A DNA stretch of 36,609 nucleotides, taken from Gammaproteobacteria bacterium. GTDB lineage: Bacteria > Pseudomonadota > Gammaproteobacteria > Xanthomonadales > Xanthomonadaceae. The stretch's first letter is position 1. Every line of letters starts with the position of its first letter. The notes under the pieces were generated by a model that was given only the letters and a program-made list of their open reading frames with translations, had not been told where the DNA came from and did not search any database. The stretch spans positions 1 through 36,609 of the forward strand of contig JANXUD010000105.1 of the NCBI GenBank assembly GCA_025352045.1, written 5' to 3'. The position numbers were made by a program, and so were the translations under genes. Shown one piece after another: positions 23,314-31,496 of this stretch.

Positions 23314-23373
23314 GGGTTTGGGGTCCTTCCAGAAGCCGCGAGTTTAGCGCGAAGCGCCCGGCGGACCGGTCGG

Positions 23374-23409
23374 CGGACACCGTCCGGACGCCCGCCGGAC
23401 AGCGTCCGG
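23374..23409. promoter_or_regulatory. Tandem palindromes, candidate enhancer (UAS) for the NtrC-type regulator
   Basis: CGGAC-ACC-GTCCG at 23374-23386 and CCGGAC-AGC-GTCCGG at 23395-23409 are both perfect dyads with a three-base spacer. Their centres are 22 bases apart, two helical turns. They lie about 81 and 103 bases upstream of the start predicted from the sigma-54 promoter at 23458, the usual place for enhancer-binding-protein sites. The binding protein is inferred; they could instead serve glmS. Confidence 0.5.
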
Positions 23410-23457
23410 TCATTCCGGATGGACTGGAAAATCATTTCGGAACAACCACTTGCGCAT

Positions 23458-23473
23458 TGGCACGCTTCCTGCT
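23458..23473 (+). promoter_or_regulatory. Sigma-54 (RpoN) promoter of the export operon
   Basis: TGGCACGCTTCCTGCT fits the -24/-12 consensus TGGCACG-N4-TTGCT with one mismatch (C for the first T of TTGC). GG and GC are at exact spacing. The predicted start, about 23483, is 20 bases before the adaptor ATG. The operon also encodes a sigma-54 activator with a GAYTGA loop, which supports the call. Confidence 0.65.
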
Positions 23474-23503
23474 GAGTGATCTTCGACTCCACGAGCCCCG
23501 GCC

Positions 23504-24775
23504 ATGATCAAAGACACTTCCGGCACCGATACCGTCCTCGCCTCCACCGCCAGCTCTGGCGGCAGGCGGCGACCGCTGCTGCTGGCCGCTGGCGCCGCGG
23601 CCGCCGTGGTCGCGGTGGTGGTGTTGCTGTCGGGCTGGTTCGGCAGTTCGCGCTCGGTGGATGCGGCGCGACTGCGCATCGCCGAGGTCACCCGCGGCAC
23701 CCTGGTGCGCGATGCGTCGGTCAATGGCCGCGTGGTCGCCGCCGTCAGCCCCACTCTGTACGCGCCCGCCGCCGCCACCGTCACGCTGAAGATCCGCGCC
23801 GGCGATGCGGTGAAGAAGGGCGACCTGCTGGCCCTGCTCGACTCGCCGGACCTCAGCAACCAGCTCGCCCGCGAACAGAGTTCGCTGGCCGAACTCGAGG
23901 CCGAGGTCGCACGCCAGCGCATCCTGGCCGAGAAGCAACGGCTGGTGGCACGCCGCGATGCCGACGAGGCCGACGTCGCGCGCCTGGGCGCCGAGCGCCT
24001 GCTGCAGCGCACCGAGGGCGGCTACAAGGCCGGCGCCATCGCCGAGATCGATTACCTGCGCGCGCAGGACGCGCTCAAGACCGCGCAGATCCGCAGCAAG
24101 CAGGCGGCGCAGGCCTCGGGCCTGGAAAACCGCGACGTGGCGCTGGAAACCAGCACCAAGCTCAGCCAGCTGCAGCGGCAACGCCTGGTGGTCCAGGACA
24201 AGCAGCGCCAGGTGGACGAATTGAACGTGCGCTCGCCGGTGGATGGCGTGGTCGGCACGCTGTCGGTGGCCGACCGCAGCGTGGTCGCCGCCAACACCGC
24301 ATTGATGACGGTGGTCGACCTGTCGCGGCTGGAAGTGGAGCTCGAGGTCCCGGAGAGCTATGCCGACGACCTGGGCCTGGGCATGACGGTCGAGGTGAAC
24401 ATCGGCGCGACCCAGGCCATGGGCAAGCTGAGTGCGCTCTCGCCCGAGGTCGTGCGCAACCAGGTGCTGGCGCGCGTGCGCTTCGACGGCGCCCAGCCTC
24501 CCGGCCTGCGCCAGAGCCAACGGCTCACCGCCCGCGTGCTCATCGAAGAGAAGCCGAACGTGCTGATGCTGCCGCGCGGCTCCTTCGTCGAGAACGAGGG
24601 CGGGCGCGCCGCCTACGTCATGGACGGCCACGTCGCCGTGCGCCGGCCGATCCAGATGGGCGGCACCAGCGTGTCCTCGGTCGAGATCCTGTCCGGCCTC
24701 AAGCAGGGCGACCGCGTGGTGATCGCCGGTACCGACGCCTTCGACGGCGCCCAGCGCATTTCCATCAACGATTGA
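23504..24775 (+). CDS. MacA-like periplasmic adaptor subunit of an ABC/efflux system
   Basis: 423 residues. One N-terminal membrane helix lies at about 24-44 (PLLLAAGAAAAVVAVVVLL), with no lipobox. A half-lipoyl motif follows (LYAPAAATVTLKIRAGDAVK, then KGDLLALLDSPDLSNQL). A long alpha-helical hairpin (about 115-235) has heptad-like repeats, then the second lipoyl half (LNVRSPVDGVVGTLSVADRS), beta-barrel and membrane-proximal domains (RGSFVENEGGRAAYVMDGHV). This is the membrane fusion protein fold that bridges an inner-membrane transporter to an outer-membrane channel. It is the first gene after the sigma-54 promoter and is followed at 31 bases by the ATPase. No TolC-like gene is in the window, so an outer-membrane partner must be encoded elsewhere. 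Confidence 0.88.
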   Translation: MIKDTSGTDTVLASTASSGGRRRPLLLAAGAAAAVVAVVVLLSGWFGSSRSVDAARLRIAEVTRGTLVRDASVNGRVVAAVSPTLYAPAAATVTLKIRAGDAVKKGDLLALLDSPDLSNQLAREQSSLAELEAEVARQRILAEKQRLVARRDADEADVARLGAERLLQRTEGGYKAGAIAEIDYLRAQDALKTAQIRSKQAAQASGLENRDVALETSTKLSQLQRQRLVVQDKQRQVDELNVRSPVDGVVGTLSVADRSVVAANTALMTVVDLSRLEVELEVPESYADDLGLGMTVEVNIGATQAMGKLSALSPEVVRNQVLARVRFDGAQPPGLRQSQRLTARVLIEEKPNVLMLPRGSFVENEGGRAAYVMDGHVAVRRPIQMGGTSVSSVEILSGLKQGDRVVIAGTDAFDGAQRISIND

Positions 24776-24806
24776 TCCACCGCAACGCTACCCGAGGAGA
24801 CGCCCG

Positions 24807-25550
24807 ATGCTTCGCATGACCAACCTGAGCAAGGTCTACCGCACCCACATGATCGAGACCCATGCGCTGCGCGGGTTCGACATCCACGTGCGCCAGGGCG
24901 AGTTCGTCGCCGTCACCGGTCCGTCGGGCTCGGGCAAGACCACCTTCCTCAACATCGCCGGCCTGCTGGAGACCTTCACCGGCGGCGACTACGTGCTCGA
25001 TGGCGTCAACGTCAAGGGCATGGACGACAACGCGCGCAGCCGGCTCAGGAACGAAAAGCTCGGCTTCATCTTCCAGGGGTTCAACCTGATTCCCGACCTC
25101 AACCTGTTCGACAACGTCGACGTGCCGCTGCGCTATCGCGGCTTCGACTCGGCCGAGCGCAAGCGCCGCATCGAAGCTGCCCTTGGCCAGGTCGGCCTGT
25201 CGTCGCGCGTGCGCCACTACCCGGCCGAGCTGTCCGGCGGCCAGCAGCAGCGCGTGGCGATCGCCCGCGCCCTGGCCGGCTCGCCCAAGCTGCTGCTCGC
25301 CGACGAACCCACCGGCAACCTGGATTCGCAGATGGCCCGCGGCGTGATGGAACTGCTCGAGGAGATCAACGAGCAGGGCACCACCATCCTGATGGTGACC
25401 CACGATCCGGAACTCGCAGCGCGCGCCCAGCGCAACGTGCACATCATCGACGGCCAGGTGTCCGACCTGCTGCGCGAGACCACCGCCTCGCTCGCGGCCG
25501 CGGTGGCCAACGCCGGCGCGCCGCGCGACAACGACAACGCCAACGCCTGA
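24807..25550 (+). CDS. ABC transporter ATP-binding protein, MacB/LolD-type
   Basis: 247 residues, a stand-alone nucleotide-binding subunit. Walker A is GPSGSGKTT (about 38-46), the Q-loop is IFQGFNLIPDLN, the signature is LSGGQQQRVAIARAL, Walker B is LLLADEPTGNLDS, and the H-loop is MVTHDPELAAR. The DEPTGNLDS and FQGFNLIP strings are typical of the MacB/FtsE/LolD group, which powers mechanotransmission rather than classical transport. A 25-residue Ala/Asn-rich tail follows the fold. GAGGAG lies before the ATG. The gene is separated from both FtsX-type permeases, unlike MacB where they are fused. Confidence 0.93.
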   Translation: MLRMTNLSKVYRTHMIETHALRGFDIHVRQGEFVAVTGPSGSGKTTFLNIAGLLETFTGGDYVLDGVNVKGMDDNARSRLRNEKLGFIFQGFNLIPDLNLFDNVDVPLRYRGFDSAERKRRIEAALGQVGLSSRVRHYPAELSGGQQQRVAIARALAGSPKLLLADEPTGNLDSQMARGVMELLEEINEQGTTILMVTHDPELAARAQRNVHIIDGQVSDLLRETTASLAAAVANAGAPRDNDNANA

Positions 25551-25569
25551 CCGGCCCGGGAGCGACGCC

Positions 25570-26889
25570 ATGTTCCGCTACTACTTCCAGCTCGGCCTGC
25601 GCAGCCTGCGCCGCAACCCGATGCTCACCGCGCTGATGGTGGTGACGCTGGCGGTTGGCGTCGCCGCCAGCATGGCCACCTTCACCGTGCTGTACGTGAT
25701 GTCCGGCGATCCGATCCCGTCCAAGAGCGATCGCCTGTTCGTGCCGCGGCTCGACAATGCCCCGCTCGTTGGCTACGCCGCGGGCGACGAACCCAGCGAC
25801 CAGCTGACTTACCAGGACGCAACCAACCTGCTCGCCAGCGGCCAGGGCCTGCGCCGCACGGCTGTGTACGGCGTCGGCACCGGCATCGACAGCGGCCGCC
25901 CCGACGTCCCGCCCTTCCTGGTGCAGGGCGTGGCGCCGACCCGTGATTTCTTCGCGATGTTCGAGGTCCCCTTCCTCTACGGCTCGCCGTGGGATGCCGC
26001 CTCCGAGATCGCCAAGGCGGACGTGATCGTGCTCAACCGCGAGACCAGCGAGAAGCTGTTCGGCCAGGTGAATCCTGTCGGCAGGACCATCCGCATGGAG
26101 AACGAGGCGTTCAAGGTGGTTGGCGTGACCGACACCTGGAACCCGCTGCCGCGCTACTACCGTCTCATCAACGGCAATGGCGGCAGCTTCACCGGCGCCG
26201 ACCAGTTCTTCATCCCGTTCCAGACCGCGATCCGGCTGGAGATGGGCAACAACGGCAACAACAACTGCTCTGGCGCCGGCCCGAGCGAGCCGGGCTGGCA
26301 GGGCTGGCTGAAGTCAGAGTGCGACTTCATCCAGTTCTGGTTCGAGGGCAAGACCGCCGCCGACCAGCCGCGCCTCAAGGAATTCCTCGGCGCCTATGTC
26401 ACCGACCAGAAGAAGCTGGGCCGCTACCCGCGCCCGATCAACGTGCGGATGGAAAACGTGATGGAGTGGATGAAGCACCTCGGCGTGGTGAGTGCCGACG
26501 CGAAGCTGTCCACCTGGCTGGCCTTCGGCTTCCTGCTGGTGTGCCTGGTCAATACCGTCGGCCTGCTGCTGGCCAAGTTCTCGGCCCGTGCCGGCGAGGT
26601 CGGCGTGCGCCGCGCGCTCGGCGCGACCAAGCGCGAGATCTTCCGCCAGTTCCTGATCGAGGCCGCGGTGATCGGACTGATGGGCGGCATCCTGGGCTTG
26701 TTGCTGAGCTTCGGCGGCCTGGCCCTGATCTCGCTGCAGTCCGAGGAGATGGCGACCGTCGCGAAGATGGACTGGTCGATGCTCGCGATGACCTTCGGCC
26801 TGGCCGTCGGCGCCAGCATCCTCGCCGGCCTGCTGCCGACCTGGCGCGCCTGCCAGGTCACGCCCGCCCTGCAACTGAAGACGCAATAA
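25570..26889 (+). CDS. ABC transporter permease, MacB/FtsX-type (first of two)
   Basis: 439 residues. The first membrane helix (about 18-43, LMVVTLAVGVAASMATFTVL) is followed by a large periplasmic MacB_PCD domain of about 270 residues. Three C-terminal helices (WLAFGFLLVCLVNTVGLLLA, AAVIGLMGGILGLLLSFGGL, MTFGLAVGASILAGLLPTW) then complete the four-helix FtsX topology. The conserved cytoplasmic EVGVRRALGATKREIFRQFL coupling segment and the end ACQVTPALQLKTQ are typical. A Gly/Asn-rich stretch with two Cys (NNGNNNCSGAG ... KSECDF) in the periplasmic part is a local feature. It probably forms a heterodimer with the next permease. No substrate can be named from sequence; the family exports peptides, antibiotics or lipoproteins. 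Confidence 0.88.
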   Translation: MFRYYFQLGLRSLRRNPMLTALMVVTLAVGVAASMATFTVLYVMSGDPIPSKSDRLFVPRLDNAPLVGYAAGDEPSDQLTYQDATNLLASGQGLRRTAVYGVGTGIDSGRPDVPPFLVQGVAPTRDFFAMFEVPFLYGSPWDAASEIAKADVIVLNRETSEKLFGQVNPVGRTIRMENEAFKVVGVTDTWNPLPRYYRLINGNGGSFTGADQFFIPFQTAIRLEMGNNGNNNCSGAGPSEPGWQGWLKSECDFIQFWFEGKTAADQPRLKEFLGAYVTDQKKLGRYPRPINVRMENVMEWMKHLGVVSADAKLSTWLAFGFLLVCLVNTVGLLLAKFSARAGEVGVRRALGATKREIFRQFLIEAAVIGLMGGILGLLLSFGGLALISLQSEEMATVAKMDWSMLAMTFGLAVGASILAGLLPTWRACQVTPALQLKTQ

Positions 26890-26899
26890 GGAGCCCGCC

Positions 26900-28132
26900 A
26901 TGGAAATCCGCCCGATCTTCTCCTCCTTGCTACGCAACAAGACCGGCGCGCTGCTGATCGCCGCGCAGGTCGCGCTCAGCCTGGCCATCGTCGCCAACGC
27001 GCTGTACATCATCAAGGACCGCGTCGAGCGCACCGCGCGCCCGAGCGGCGTCGCCGACGAGAGTTCGCTGTTCCGCATCGGCATCGCGCAGCTCAAGGAT
27101 CCGGAGACGCCCGAGGGCAAGGTCGACCTGCAGGAACGCAATGCCGCCGTGCTGCGTGCCATCCCGGGTGTCGCGGCCGTGGCGTGGACCAACCAGACGC
27201 CGCTGTCGACCTCCGGCTGGAACATGGGCCTGTCGCTGGACACCAAGCAGGCGGAGACAACGACCAATACCGCCGTGTATTTCGGCCCGGATTCCTTCGT
27301 GAAGACCTACGGCCTCAAGCTGGTGGAGGGTCGCGACATCACCCCCGACGACGTCGAGCTGATCGACCCGGACAAGAGCCAGTCGCTGGGCAAGGTCGCG
27401 CTTTTCACCCGCGCCCTTGCGAAGAAGCTGATGCCCACGGGCTCGGTGGTCGGCAAGACCTTCTACATCGGCACCGGCGCCAGTGCGTTGCCCCTGCAGG
27501 CCGTGGGCGTGGTCGAGCGCCTGCAATCGCCCTGGGCGCAGTCAGGGGAGCGCGGCGAACTGAGCATGATGCTGGCCGCGCGCCGCACCGAGGGCTACTC
27601 GAGGTTCAGCGTGCGCACCGAACCGGGCCAGCGCGACCGCGTCATGAAGGAAGCCGAAGCCGCCGTCGCCAAGGCGATCCCCGGGCAGATGGTGGTGCAC
27701 AACGACTCGATGGACAAGGATCGCCATGACCTGTATCGCAACGACCTGGCGATCGCCTGGATGCTCGGCGTGGTGACCGTGCTGTTGTTGCTGGTCACCG
27801 CCAGCGGCATCGTCGGCATGGCGACCCTGTGGGTGAACCAGCGGCGCAAGCAGATCGGCGTGCGTCGCGCGCTGGGTGCGCGCAAGGTGGACGTGCTGCG
27901 CTATTTCATCTTGGAGAACTTCATCATCACCACCGGCGGGGTGGTGGCCGGCCTGCTGCTGGCAGTCGGGCTCAACCAGTTGCTGGTCAGCCAGCTCGAG
28001 TTGACCAAGCTGCCACTGGGTTACCTCGCGATCGGCTCGCTGGTGCTGTGGCTGGTCGGCGTGGCGGCGGTGTACGCCCCGGCATGGCGCGCGTCCGGCA
28101 TCTCGCCGGCCATCGCCACGCGCAGTGCCTGA
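26900..28132 (+). CDS. ABC transporter permease, MacB/FtsX-type (second of two)
   Basis: 410 residues, the same topology as its neighbour: one N-terminal helix (LLIAAQVALSLAIVANALYI), a periplasmic domain of about 240 residues (from RVERTARPSG to the SMDKDRHDLYRN segment), and three C-terminal helices. The coupling segment is KQIGVRRALGARKVDVLRYF and the end is WRASGISPAIATRSA. It starts 10 bases after the first permease with a clear AAGGAG site. The two permeases are clearly divergent, pointing to a heterodimer. A palindromic repeat starts right after its stop and may separate the transporter genes from the regulator genes. Confidence 0.87.
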   Translation: MEIRPIFSSLLRNKTGALLIAAQVALSLAIVANALYIIKDRVERTARPSGVADESSLFRIGIAQLKDPETPEGKVDLQERNAAVLRAIPGVAAVAWTNQTPLSTSGWNMGLSLDTKQAETTTNTAVYFGPDSFVKTYGLKLVEGRDITPDDVELIDPDKSQSLGKVALFTRALAKKLMPTGSVVGKTFYIGTGASALPLQAVGVVERLQSPWAQSGERGELSMMLAARRTEGYSRFSVRTEPGQRDRVMKEAEAAVAKAIPGQMVVHNDSMDKDRHDLYRNDLAIAWMLGVVTVLLLLVTASGIVGMATLWVNQRRKQIGVRRALGARKVDVLRYFILENFIITTGGVVAGLLLAVGLNQLLVSQLELTKLPLGYLAIGSLVLWLVGVAAVYAPAWRASGISPAIATRSA

Positions 28133-28135
28133 GTC

Positions 28136-28194
28136 GTGGGAGCAGCGTCGGCCGCGATGTCCGGCAGCGGCATCGCGGCTGAAGCCGCTCCCAC
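28136..28194. repeat. REP-type palindromic repeat (large hairpin)
   Basis: Arms 28136-28159 (starting GTGGGAGCAGCGTCGG) and 28171-28194 (ending GAAGCCGCTCCCAC) pair at 21 of 24 positions around an 11-base loop. The sequence belongs to the GTGGGAGCGGCTTCAGCCG repeats also seen at 1156 and 32961. It lies between the second permease and the response regulator and may act as a transcript-stability or attenuation element. Confidence 0.8.
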
Positions 28195-28228
28195 ATGGCG
28201 CAAGCACGACATGTCGTAAGCTAATGTG

Positions 28229-29581
28229 ATGCCGACAGTCCTTGTCATCGACGACAACCCCTCGGTCGCCACCGCGCTCGAGGTCCTGTTTTCCCTGCAG
28301 GACATCGACACCCTGCGCGCGCTCTCGCCCGAGCAGGGCCTGGCCCTGCTGGAGTCGAACGACGTGGACCTGGTGCTGCAGGACATGAACTTCACCGCCG
28401 ACACCACCTCCGGCGAAGAAGGCGTGGCCCTGTTCCGCGAGATCCGCCGGCGCCATCCCGACCTGCCGCTGATCCTGCTCACGGCCTGGACCCACCTCGA
28501 CGCCGCGGTGGACCTGGTCAAGGCCGGTGCGGCCGATTACCTGGCCAAGCCCTGGGACGATCGTCGCCTGCTGACGGCGGTGGAGAACCTGATCGAGCTC
28601 GGCCAGGCCAGCCGCGCCCTGCGCCAACGGGTGCAGCGGGAGCAGCGCCAGCGCCGCGAACTCGAACGGCAATACGACTTGCGCGGCGTGGTGTGGGGCG
28701 ATCCGGCCACCGAGCGCGTGATCGCGCTGGCCTGCCAGGTCGCGCGCGCCGACGTGCCCGTGCTGATCACCGGTCCCAATGGCGCCGGCAAGGAGCGCAT
28801 CGCCGAGATCATCCAGGCCAATTCGGCGGTGAAGGATGGTCCCTTCGTGACGCTCAACTGCGGCGCGCTGCCGTCGGAGCTGATCGAGGCCGAACTGTTT
28901 GGCGCCGATGCCGGCGCCTACACCGGCGCGACCAAGGCGCGCGAGGGCAAATTCGCCGCGGCCGATGGCGGCACGCTGTTCCTGGACGAGATCGGCAACC
29001 TCCCACTCGCGGGGCAGATGAAACTGTTGCGCGTCCTCGAGACGGGCCGCTTCGAGCGCCTCGGTTCGAACAGGGAACGGCAAGTCAAAGTGCGCGTGAT
29101 CAGCGCGACCAATGCCGACATCGCCGCGATGATCCGCGCCGGCACGTTTCGCGAGGACCTGTACTACCGCCTCAACCTGATCGAACTGCGCCTGCCCCCG
29201 CTGGCCGAACGCCCCGGCGACATCCTTCCCCTGGCCGACCATTTCCTGGCCGGCGGAAAGCCGCTCGGCGACGCGGCGCGCGCACTGCTCCTGCGCCATG
29301 CCTGGCCGGGCAATGTGCGCGAGCTCAAGAACACGATGCAGCGCGCCAGCCTGCTTGCCGCCAGCGAGCGCATCGCACCGGTGGACCTCGGCATCGCGGT
29401 GAATGCCGCGTCGCCGCCCCCTGCCACGCCCGCGACGACCGAGGCCGAACCGGATCGCGAGGCGATCGAAGCTGCGCTCGCGCGCGCCGGCAACGTCGTC
29501 GCCCAGGCCGCCGCCGAGCTGGGACTCAGCCGCCAGGCCCTGTACCGGCGCATGGAGCGGCTGGGCCTCAGCCGCCCCTGA
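28229..29581 (+). CDS. NtrC-family sigma-54-dependent response regulator
   Basis: 450 residues in three domains. The receiver (1-125) has Asp8/Asp9, phosphoacceptor Asp52 (LVLQDMNF), Thr85 and Lys107. The AAA+ domain (about 155-385) has Walker A GPNGAGKE (182-189), the sigma-54 contact loop GAYTGA (229-234), Walker B GGTLFLDE and the arginine-finger region FREDLYYRLN. The C-terminal Fis-type helix-turn-helix ends in AAAELGLSRQALYRRMERLG. GAYTGA is a Phe-to-Tyr form of GAFTGA, a substitution found in active members, so it should contact RNA polymerase sigma-54. The receiver loop after Asp52 is longer than usual (TADTTSGEEG). Its likely target is the sigma-54 promoter at 23458. The kinase gene follows after two bases. 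Confidence 0.95.
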   Translation: MPTVLVIDDNPSVATALEVLFSLQDIDTLRALSPEQGLALLESNDVDLVLQDMNFTADTTSGEEGVALFREIRRRHPDLPLILLTAWTHLDAAVDLVKAGAADYLAKPWDDRRLLTAVENLIELGQASRALRQRVQREQRQRRELERQYDLRGVVWGDPATERVIALACQVARADVPVLITGPNGAGKERIAEIIQANSAVKDGPFVTLNCGALPSELIEAELFGADAGAYTGATKAREGKFAAADGGTLFLDEIGNLPLAGQMKLLRVLETGRFERLGSNRERQVKVRVISATNADIAAMIRAGTFREDLYYRLNLIELRLPPLAERPGDILPLADHFLAGGKPLGDAARALLLRHAWPGNVRELKNTMQRASLLAASERIAPVDLGIAVNAASPPPATPATTEAEPDREAIEAALARAGNVVAQAAAELGLSRQALYRRMERLGLSRP

Positions 29582-29583
29582 CA

Positions 29584-30903
29584 ATGGCCGCCAGGCGCCT
29601 CCACATGTCGTTGTCGGCGCGCTACGCGGCGCTCGCGGCGCTGCTCGCGGCCGGCACCGTTATCGTCACGGTGGCGCTGGGCGCCTGGTTCCAAGACAGT
29701 CCGCTGCTGGTCGGCGCGCTTGCCCTGCTGATGGCGCTGCCGATGGTGCTGTGGCTGGTGCGCAGCCAGTTCCGGCCGATGCTGTCCCTGTTCCGCGCCC
29801 TCAACGGCACGGTGAGCAGCTATCGCGACGGGGATTTCAGCTTCGGCCTGCGCTGGCCGAGGAACGATGAGCTGTCCGAGCTGGTGGACGCGCACAACGC
29901 GCTGGGCGATGTATTGCGCGAACAGCGCCTGGGCCTGGTGCAGCGCGAGCTGCTGCTCGACACCATGGTGCAGAACACGCCCGTGGCGATGCTGCTGGTC
30001 GCCGAGGGCGGGCCGATCGTGTACGCCAACATCGCCGCCCGGCAACTGCTGCACCAGGGCCGCAAGCTCGAGGGGCACCGCTTCGACGCGATCCTCGCGC
30101 AGGCAAATCCCGCGCTGCGCGATGCCGTCGAGCGCGGCGGCGACGGCCTGTTCTCGGTCGGCGCCGAGGACGATGAGGAAATCTACCACCTGGCGCGGCG
30201 CGGCTTCCGCCTGAACGGGCGCGCGCACGAGCTGCTGCTGCTGCGCCAGATCACGGTGGAATTGCGCCGCCAGGAAGTGCAGACGTGGAAGAAGGTCATC
30301 CGGGTGATCAGCCACGAACTCAACAACTCGCTGGCGCCGGTGGCGTCGCTCGCGCACTCCGGCGGCGAACTCGTGCGGCGCACGCAGTACGAGAAGCTCC
30401 CGGCCATCTTCGCCACCATCGAGGAGCGCGCGCGCCACCTGGAGGGATTCATCCGCGGCTATGCGCACTTCGCCAAGCTGCCGATGCCCCGGCGCGAGCC
30501 GATCGCCTGGCCGGAATTCGTCTCGCGCCTGCACAGCCAGATCCCCTTCGCCGTGGACGGCGAGCTGCCGACGGGGCCTGCCCAGTTCGACCTCGCGCAG
30601 ATGGAGCAGGCGCTGCTGAACCTGTTGAAGAACGCGCACGAGTCCGGCTCCGCCGACGACCAGGTGTCGCTGCGCGTGCGCCATGCCGGGCAGATGCTGC
30701 GCATCGAGGTGATGGACCGCGGCAGCGGCATGAGCGACGCGGTGCTGTCCAACGCGCTGGTGCCGTTCTACTCGACCAAGCGCAGCGGCACGGGGCTGGG
30801 GCTGGCGCTGGCGCGCGAAATCGCCGAAGCGCATGGCGGCCGGATCAGCCTGGGCAACCGCGAAGGCGGCGGGCTGGCCGTGGCCATGGTCCTGCCGGCG
30901 TAG
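29584..30903 (+). CDS. Sensor histidine kinase with intramembrane-type sensor, HAMP and PAS
   Basis: 439 residues. Two membrane helices (about 14-36 and 41-59) are joined by only a few residues (QDSP), so there is no periplasmic sensor domain. HAMP (about 60-115), PAS (about 122-220, LLDTMVQNTPVAMLLV and GGPIVYANIAARQLL), then the H-box VISHELNNSLAP with His244. The ATPase domain has the N-box LLNLLKNAHESGS, G1 MDRGSGM and G2 KRSGTGLGLALAREI. NtrB-like H-box wording fits pairing with the NtrC-type regulator two bases upstream. Without a loop, the signal is probably sensed in the membrane, through the neighbouring transporter, or by the cytoplasmic PAS. Confidence 0.93.
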   Translation: MAARRLHMSLSARYAALAALLAAGTVIVTVALGAWFQDSPLLVGALALLMALPMVLWLVRSQFRPMLSLFRALNGTVSSYRDGDFSFGLRWPRNDELSELVDAHNALGDVLREQRLGLVQRELLLDTMVQNTPVAMLLVAEGGPIVYANIAARQLLHQGRKLEGHRFDAILAQANPALRDAVERGGDGLFSVGAEDDEEIYHLARRGFRLNGRAHELLLLRQITVELRRQEVQTWKKVIRVISHELNNSLAPVASLAHSGGELVRRTQYEKLPAIFATIEERARHLEGFIRGYAHFAKLPMPRREPIAWPEFVSRLHSQIPFAVDGELPTGPAQFDLAQMEQALLNLLKNAHESGSADDQVSLRVRHAGQMLRIEVMDRGSGMSDAVLSNALVPFYSTKRSGTGLGLALAREIAEAHGGRISLGNREGGGLAVAMVLPA

Positions 30904-30920
30904 TCGGGCACACTACGCCG

Positions 30921-31496
30921 ATGGGACTGTTGCGCGACGAACTGGGCAAGCCACGCTGGAGCGGCGGCGGCCTGGTGCTGCTTGGACTGCTGGTGATCCT
31001 GGTCGCCGTGCCGCTGCTGCGACACGGCCGCGGCATGGGACATCCCCTCGCCGGCAGCCAGCGCATCGACCTGTGCCCCTTCCTGCCGCGGCCGCCCGCG
31101 CTGCTGGAGGGCGCAACGCATGCGCCCCAACCGGGCGAGATGCATGCGGCAACCTGTGAGTTCCGGACTGCGGACGGCCAGGTCGCCCTGCGCGCTTCGC
31201 TCTCAAGCACCCGCCAGATCTCCGCCGATGGCCCGGTACGGACTGACAAGTATTTCGAGACATGGAAGAAGGAAAACGCCGCCACCACGGGGACGGTCAT
31301 GCGCGACCTGCCCGGTGTCGGCAACAAGGCGTTCGCGTATCGCGATGGACAGCGCAACCTGGTGGTGGTCGAGGACCACGGCGTGATGCTGGTGTTCGAA
31401 TCGCGCCTGCTTGGGGCGCCTGCGCTCGAGGACTGGGCGAAAGCAGCGACGCTGGCGATCCGCGGGTCGCCGAAGGAACACGCGGACCTGGACTGA
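30921..31496 (+). CDS. Hypothetical membrane-anchored protein
   Basis: 191 residues, unrecognised. A single helix at about 17-33 (LVLLGLLVILVAVPLL) follows a short cytoplasmic start (MGLLRDELGKPRWSGGG). The rest is probably periplasmic, with two Cys (RIDLCPFLP and ATCEFRT) that could pair. The core CEFRTADGQVALRASLS, DLPGVGNKAFAYRDGQRNLV and VEDHGVMLVFES resembles small periplasmic beta-rich proteins that measure or bind a ligand, but I cannot assign a family. It starts 17 bases after the kinase stop in the same direction, so it is probably the last gene of the export-module operon and a possible accessory to signal sensing. It converges with glmU. Confidence 0.7.
   Translation: MGLLRDELGKPRWSGGGLVLLGLLVILVAVPLLRHGRGMGHPLAGSQRIDLCPFLPRPPALLEGATHAPQPGEMHAATCEFRTADGQVALRASLSSTRQISADGPVRTDKYFETWKKENAATTGTVMRDLPGVGNKAFAYRDGQRNLVVVEDHGVMLVFESRLLGAPALEDWAKAATLAIRGSPKEHADLD

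Follow-up and report, generated by a model that had tools for sequence, protein, structure and literature searches.

The 36,609-nucleotide stretch of gammaproteobacterial DNA analyzed here (36.6 kb, hereafter the window, from an Arenimonas-like source genome of 3.0 Mb in 141 contigs) carries six same-strand genes at positions 23504-30903 that encode an adaptor, an ATPase, two MacB/FtsX permeases, an NtrC-class response regulator and a histidine kinase. We conclude that these genes very probably form a dedicated, autoregulated export module under the control of its own sigma-54 two-component system, and we assign this reading a probability of roughly 0.88. Sequence comparison supports it through the gene set, the promoter, the operator, and the agreement between operator and regulator. 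Specifically, we hypothesize that the kinase phosphorylates the response regulator, which would bind an array of TGTCCG-type half-sites upstream of the promoter and activate sigma-54 RNA polymerase at a -24/-12 promoter. Transcription from this promoter would yield the adaptor, the ATPase and both permeases, plus the regulator and the kinase, and would thereby establish positive autoregulation. The regulator and kinase genes are probably cotranscribed with the transporter genes because all lie in the same direction and are separated by short gaps. The transporter itself would be a Type VII (MacB-like) pump composed of a separate ATPase, two different permeases and an adaptor, with its outer-membrane channel presumably encoded elsewhere.

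The promoter, the operator and the regulator

The features central to this proposal are as follows.

23362-23409, no strand assigned: predicted operator (enhancer) array, with CGGAC at 23362, 23374, 23385 and 23396, and GTCCG at 23382 and 23404
23458-23472, plus strand: sigma-54 (-24/-12) promoter TGGCACGCTTCCTGC, one mismatch to TGGCACG-N4-TTGC
23504-24775, plus strand: adaptor (periplasmic, membrane fusion protein; HlyD_D23, RND_mfp)
24807-25550, plus strand: ATP-binding cassette (ABC) ATPase, MacB/LolD/DarD-like, without permease fusion (ABC_tran)
25570-26889, plus strand: permease P1 (MacB_PCD and FtsX; sequence match to MacB)
26900-28132, plus strand: permease P2 (MacB_PCD and FtsX; predicted model closest to MacB)
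28226-29581, plus strand: NtrC-class response regulator (Response_reg, Sigma54_activat, HTH_8; GAYTGA; recognition helix SRQALYRR)
29584-30903, plus strand: histidine kinase (HATPase_c; PAS slightly below the cut-off; HELNN H-box; two predicted N-terminal transmembrane helices)

A preliminary description of this DNA had noted a near-consensus -24/-12 promoter at 23458, and TGGCACGCTTCCTGC proves to be the sole match in the window with at most one mismatch to the consensus. Related loci were gathered with an alignment of twelve regulators as the query, keeping the best 80 of at least 585 confirmed stretches. Within the 300 bp preceding the adaptor gene (n=62), the best promoter match has no mismatch in 8 loci, one in 30, two in 19 and three in 5. 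A site with at most one mismatch is thus found in 38 of 62 upstream regions, versus 0.45% of 3100 dinucleotide shuffles of these regions and 0.53% of 3010 random windows from the same loci. Similarly, all 18 adaptor-bearing genomes of the genus, that of the window included, carry a promoter with no more than two mismatches.

For a broader comparison the sample was enlarged from the family of genome G587, where 113 of 295 genomes gave a match at E values up to 1e-115 and 80 regions were fetched for part of them. Left out before counting were L046 and L108, whose adaptor genes are cut off, and L138, which comes from the same genome as L089; L040 offers just 215 bp of upstream sequence. In the resulting 136 loci, all with upstream sequence that could be read, a promoter with up to two mismatches occurs in 107 and the core GG-N10-GC in 113, and 101 are sited 40-110 bp before the gene. 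The Arenimonas control windows for this count come from one end of each locus, irrespective of its strand.

Upstream of the promoter, the CGGAC half-sites of the window recur with a period of 11-12 bp in an array that lies 49-96 bp upstream of the -24 element, and a density of six GTCCG/CGGAC per 120 bp is reached only in this part of the window. Orthologous operons share the cluster. The mean number of TGTCCG/CGGACA hexamers per 120 bp, taken 30-150 bp upstream of the promoter, is 3.34 in 62 loci versus 0.070 in 2386 control windows, and two or more are present in 93.5% of these loci versus 0.3% of the control windows. For this count the promoter of L081 was set by hand at 50 bp before the gene, whereas the 136-locus counts use the one chosen by the script.

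Many of the half-sites are arranged as an inward palindrome. The exact form TGTCCGCGGACA is present in 20 of 62 upstream regions, and the 136 loci hold 61 palindromes of the form TGTyCGCGrACA, whose centers fall 57-63 bp (45 cases) or 69-73 bp (12 cases) from the promoter, a step of about one helical turn. Near-copies contribute little to this pattern, as 44 and 12 of 60 palindromes occupy the two classes after their removal, which reduces the 136 loci to 134. In Arenimonas and Oxalobacteraceae-like loci the palindrome is replaced by half-sites that mainly form direct repeats with 9-11 bp spacing, a layout that the CGGAC series of the window fits.

The preliminary description had also singled out paired palindromes. 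The dyads CGGACACCGTCCGG (23374-23387) and CGGACAGCGTCCGG (23396-23409) do exist within the operator array, spaced 22 bp apart. We rejected them as a conserved element, since the pattern appears in none of the 17 other adaptor-bearing congeners. They are best regarded as a local product of the half-site array; judged by the compared loci, the conserved feature is the TGTCCG/CGGACA cluster. Thus the expected conservation upstream of orthologous operons extends to the promoter and the half-site cluster and not to the exact dyads.

Further evidence links the operator to the regulator encoded at the other end of the transporter genes. In a first comparison, TGTTCG replaced TGTCCG in three loci, and these were the ones whose regulators open the recognition helix with R-S rather than R-Q. 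Across the 136 loci, 120 combine Q with TGTCCG and 11 combine S with TGTTCG (118 and 11 of 134 without near-copies). In six genomes that carry two paralogues, each operator agrees with its own regulator (L138/L190, L139/L195, L135/L160, L140/L178, L137/L175 and L104/L161); a seventh, L141/L211, has one unreadable side. A tree was built without the DNA-binding domain after leaving out L111 (38% identity, no orthologue), L063 (regulator incomplete) and L138. It unites the S-type regulators in one clade with a support of 98, and the many independent operator switches that we looked for were not found.

Composition and conservation of the gene module

The preliminary description listed an adaptor, an ATPase, two permeases, an NtrC-class regulator with GAYTGA and a kinase running in one direction, all of which Pfam and NCBIfam bear out. 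The regulator matches Response_reg (2.3e-21), Sigma54_activat (2.2e-64) and HTH_8 (5.6e-12), and GAYTGA stands in its translation. Its best NCBIfam matches are the PrsR (PEP-CTERM), NtrC and AtoC-type response regulators, yet all 25 scores shown fall far under the cut-offs of those models, the best being 325.7 versus 502.6 bits. The rpoN gene is present elsewhere in the genome.

MacB-type transporters are usually discussed as exporters of drugs, peptides and lipoproteins. Both permeases combine a periplasmic core domain with an FtsX fold (by Pfam, and for P2 also by fold search), and permease lengths of 410-439 amino acids are MacB-like. The predicted P2 model (mean pLDDT 90.0) finds MacB (5gko, E 1.1e-17) as its best Foldseek match, followed by LolCDE, HrtBA, YbbAP and BceAB. 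P1 and P2 each match one half of the ADOP duplicated-permease model, below its cut-off. The system therefore resembles MacAB-TolC in pairing an adaptor with a Type VII ABC transporter. Unlike MacB, in which the ATPase is fused to one homodimerizing permease, it encodes the ATPase separately and has genes for two different permeases, and it adds sigma-54 two-component control of its own. The six-gene run includes no TolC-type outer-membrane partner; the rest of the genome was not searched for one.

The kept loci come from Lysobacterales, Oxalobacteraceae and other Burkholderiales, Alteromonadales and other Gammaproteobacteria, along with one metagenome-assembled genome (MAG) each from Thermoanaerobaculia, Deltaproteobacteria and Myxococcales. 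The gene order anticipated from the window, adaptor-ATPase-P1-P2-regulator-kinase, is found in full in 61 of the 80 named loci, and in 77 of 80 at least one transporter gene lies upstream of the regulator. Among the 19 incomplete loci, as judged by reading, ten hold several permease pairs in an array that begins beyond the fetched sequence, and contig ends truncate five more; no adaptor could be detected in L103, L077 and L078 have no adjoining transporter, and L111 is not an orthologue. P2 has a match (E up to 1e-30) in 108 of 200 genomes sampled from the order, including that of the window, and 18 of the 27 congeneric genomes yield the adaptor. Across the 61 complete loci, proteins compared with those of the window have median identities of 77% for the ATPase, 68% for the regulator and 60% for the kinase, and 47%, 46% and 40% for the adaptor, P1 and P2, respectively, so the control parts are evidently more conserved than the adaptor and the permeases.

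Two further features accompany the module.

28136-28194, no strand assigned: REP-like inverted repeat, arms 28136-28159 and 28171-28194, 88% complementary
30921-31496, plus strand: small open reading frame without a Pfam or NCBIfam match

The gaps from the adaptor through the small open reading frame measure 31, 19, 10, 93, 2 and 17 bp, and the 93-bp interval between P2 and the regulator contains the inverted repeat, which we take to be of the REP kind. This repeat may set different expression levels for the pump and the control genes. A second sigma-54 promoter before the regulator gene was considered and rejected (0 of 62 sites with at most one mismatch), and neither a sigma-70-like promoter nor a terminator was found in the interval 28000-28350. 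No additional promoter of either kind thus accounts for basal expression of the regulator and the kinase. The small open reading frame, which the preliminary description had included in the module as an anchored protein, is rejected as a member: it accompanies the module in none of the 80 named loci and is present in 2 of 27 congeneric genomes, its own included. The module proper stops at 30903, not 31496.

The adaptor of the window is about 60-65% identical to Oxalobacteraceae versions versus about 46-49% to those of Xanthomonas and Stenotrophomonas, and the regulator groups near Oxalobacteraceae; because both affinities favor Oxalobacteraceae, horizontal transfer of the module is possible. 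Elsewhere in the family, two to four P1-P2 pairs stand in tandem ahead of one regulator-kinase pair (L046, L048, L057, L058, L060, L061, L062, L064, L065, L066, L075 and L080), which would place multiple permeases under a single control unit. Additional genes between P2 and the regulator encode PDZ-domain proteins and a DUF885 protein (L057:9112-9909, L041:9451-9882 and L064:8042-9844).

Candidate signals for the kinase

Hydropathy predicts two transmembrane helices 2-26 residues apart, most often 7, in 69 of 77 kinases, and about 7 residues apart at the N-terminus of the kinase in the window. A single helix was called in the other eight, whose start is probably misassigned. Because the two helices nearly abut, the kinase seems to be without a periplasmic sensor domain, in which case the sources left for its signal are the membrane, the transporter, or a cytoplasmic ligand of its weak PAS region. 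We consider the chances slightly better than even that this signal is either something within the membrane or the state of the transporter.

The latter arrangement would make expression follow export load, as in the flux sensing of BceAB-BceS, and we advance it tentatively, as an idea that is more likely wrong than right. In addition to the kinase topology, the position of a transporter gene upstream of the regulator in nearly all loci agrees with it, and the titles of solved BceAB-BceS entries indicate that a related permease is able to hold a kinase. According to the portion of PMC3023708 available to us, a permease of the same superfamily can be required for signaling in the BceRS-BceAB systems, which are there called specific to Firmicutes and are not the same system as the module. 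The argument is one of analogy. The module shares with these systems a same-superfamily ABC transporter, a linked two-component system, and an intramembrane-sensing-type kinase with two transmembrane helices and a very short extracytoplasmic loop. However, it lacks their large BceB-like permease and OmpR-type regulator, and instead possesses a sigma-54 activator, an adaptor, and MacB-like permeases that are smaller and built differently. Some of the Bce-type features compared here are general background. In L077 and L078 the regulator is located apart from the transporter, which by itself does not exclude contact. Thus, of the feedback between export load and transporter synthesis that had been suggested for the window, gene order and operator imply the autoregulatory part, whereas load sensing is conjecture.

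Alternatively, the kinase might directly bind a membrane-dissolved substrate or lipid that the pump only clears, a possibility that we rate slightly lower still. The short-loop topology would suit this role. For HrtBA, which P2 resembles in fold, extrusion of heme from the membrane is described, and for HssS-HrtBA sensing at the membrane face (PMC11237747, in the portion available), although this too is not the same system as the module. HssS carries an extracellular domain that the module kinases do not have, and no ligand is known.

Palindromes across genomes, alternatives and significance

The operator palindrome may mark more than the transporter. TGTCCGCGGACA is a single copy in 9 of 12 genomes whose operon carries the exact palindrome, and in a further set, 9 genomes sharing one genus code contain it once apiece and three other permease-bearing genomes do not contain it; it is absent from the genome of L091. 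As a control, the pattern read backwards occurs in 3 of 30 genomes of the further set. Even where the transporter operon is remote from the regulator gene (L077 and L078), palindrome and promoter are present before the operon (L213 and L212). In nine Rhodanobacteraceae genomes (Dyella, Rhodanobacter and Luteibacter), by comparison, there are 2-6 palindromes each, 30 in total. Together with 7 from other genomes, 37 sites were examined. Transporter genes follow 17 of them, a small peptide gene follows 12 (all in Rhodanobacteraceae), and other genes follow 3, one of these genes encoding an S10 peptidase (L217); the remaining 5 lack a promoter with fewer than three mismatches. Given the PDZ-domain and DUF885 genes noted above, this peptidase target possibly points to a peptidase theme around the module.

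The peptide measures 62-71 residues and shows a C-terminal CxLPxDGxxC motif and, by eye, one hydrophobic stretch, a plan that we presume to be similar to that of MgrB. Its nine primary copies, one in each of nine genomes (L129, L215, L218, L220, L221, L255, L257, L262 and L265), have their own sigma-54 promoter and palindrome; diverged second copies occur in L214, L259 (with an internal stop) and L267. A SpoU-methylase gene, which we take to be trmL-like, adjoins the peptide gene in at least five loci, L218 among them. No Pfam match was obtained for two copies scanned and no NCBIfam match for five, and the motif did not appear in the literature searched.

Two other palindrome contexts were observed. 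In two Dyella loci (L226 and L258) a TetR-like gene stands on one side of the exact palindrome and, downstream on the other, a PCMT gene and then a gene for an outer-membrane efflux protein (OEP), with no clear -24/-12 site; the efflux gene of L258 scores as TolC family above the cut-off. This proximity is possibly a link to the outer-membrane partner, or chance. In one Stenotrophomonas, a 134-amino-acid protein that looks secreted and has three VQVRP/VNVRP-like repeats is encoded behind a palindrome and promoter (L223:1755-2159).

Several observations count against the proposed module or its control. The operator of the window is weak: it comprises two exact hexamers, and any inward palindrome in it has at least two mismatches. 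The genome does contain one exact palindrome, but elsewhere (L122), with no promoter of fewer than three mismatches nearby. The best promoter site has three or four mismatches in 29 of 136 loci. Five of the 136 (L063, L081, L157, L189 and L211) are patternless or unclassifiable: three are Q loci without either motif, L189 combines Q with a single TGTTCG and a four-mismatch promoter, and L063 has TGTCCG with an incomplete regulator. A wrong adaptor start or an overlooked site is the likely cause of some of these exceptions. Because the S-type regulators form one clade, the switch from Q to S counts as one evolutionary event and supplies one independent pair. Exact GAYTGA is found in only 100 of 161 regulator sequences, and the weak PAS region of the kinase could sense a cytoplasmic signal. 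Regarding the GAYTGA loop, its last position is usually conserved in sigma-54 activators; here it varies (I, S or L) in many orthologues, for example in the regulators of L036, L039, L054, L087 and L089.

Another sigma-54 activator such as NtrC might drive the promoter while the linked regulator acts elsewhere, and the four further strong Sigma54_activat proteins in the genome of the window, all of which would use the same kind of promoter, lend this some force. We nevertheless judge it improbable, as the operator changes with the recognition helix of the linked regulator, even between paralogues in one genome. Furthermore, TGTCCGCGGACA is absent from all 18 same-order genomes without a permease match that were surveyed (of 92 such genomes), a weak control because all 18 belong to families other than that of the window. 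Although sites with up to three mismatches abound (the window has 134, a number that shuffles exceed), chance motifs in GC-rich DNA beside a merely adjacent gene cluster are a negligible explanation, contradicted by the shuffle, random-window and half-site controls and by the way promoter, operator and gene order recur together in several groups of bacteria. We therefore retain the autoregulated module: as first suggested, the transporter is very probably driven through sigma-54 by the regulator encoded behind it, judging from the conserved promoter, the half-sites, and the agreement between operator and helix.

The earlier view that most MacAB-type systems are not known for such control is partly overtaken by a 2025 study (PMC12316311), which predicts sigma-54 control of COG0577 FtsX-like permeases in gammaproteobacteria, Opitutia and Bacteroidia, and which presents this as first evidence; the linked regulator, operator, gene order and autoregulation are not given in the portion available. 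SmaCDEF of Stenotrophomonas maltophilia (Smlt1651-4) is likewise a four-gene ABC efflux pump from a related bacterium (PMC12189255 and PMC11356428, in part). We rejected it as the same operon and regard it as probably another locus, as the published primers have at least five mismatches throughout nine Stenotrophomonas and Xanthomonas loci of the module, strain K279a not being among the nine. Available portions of Xanthomonas expression and RpoN papers (PMC7970052 and PMC10782981) contain nothing on the module operon, and among the matches listed in the open-access literature searched there is no description of its two-component system, operator or peptide. The string TGTCCGCGGACA itself turned up in a single paper, whose subject is an unrelated human gene; alternative spellings of the operator were not searched.

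More speculatively, the system could be a Gram-negative counterpart of flux sensing that evolved independently on a sigma-54 activator, in which the workload of a MacB-type pump is signaled to a kinase that has no periplasmic sensor domain, and in which the same regulator also drives the Rhodanobacteraceae peptide as a feedback brake, partner or cargo. Taken as a whole, we consider this unlikely.

Regardless, an export pump in many Lysobacterales, Burkholderiales and Alteromonadales, and in a few other MAGs, appears to be equipped with a sigma-54 switch of its own, whose DNA code can be read. This code, in which Q goes with TGTCCG and S with TGTTCG, would provide a clean test of how an activator chooses its DNA and of how two copies are insulated within one cell. 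As a search tool, the operator reveals likely regulon members, including small membrane peptides that belong to no known family, and may lead to the signal and the substrate. A short DNA word before the pump genes, which the switch protein probably reads, makes an export feedback loop directly testable.

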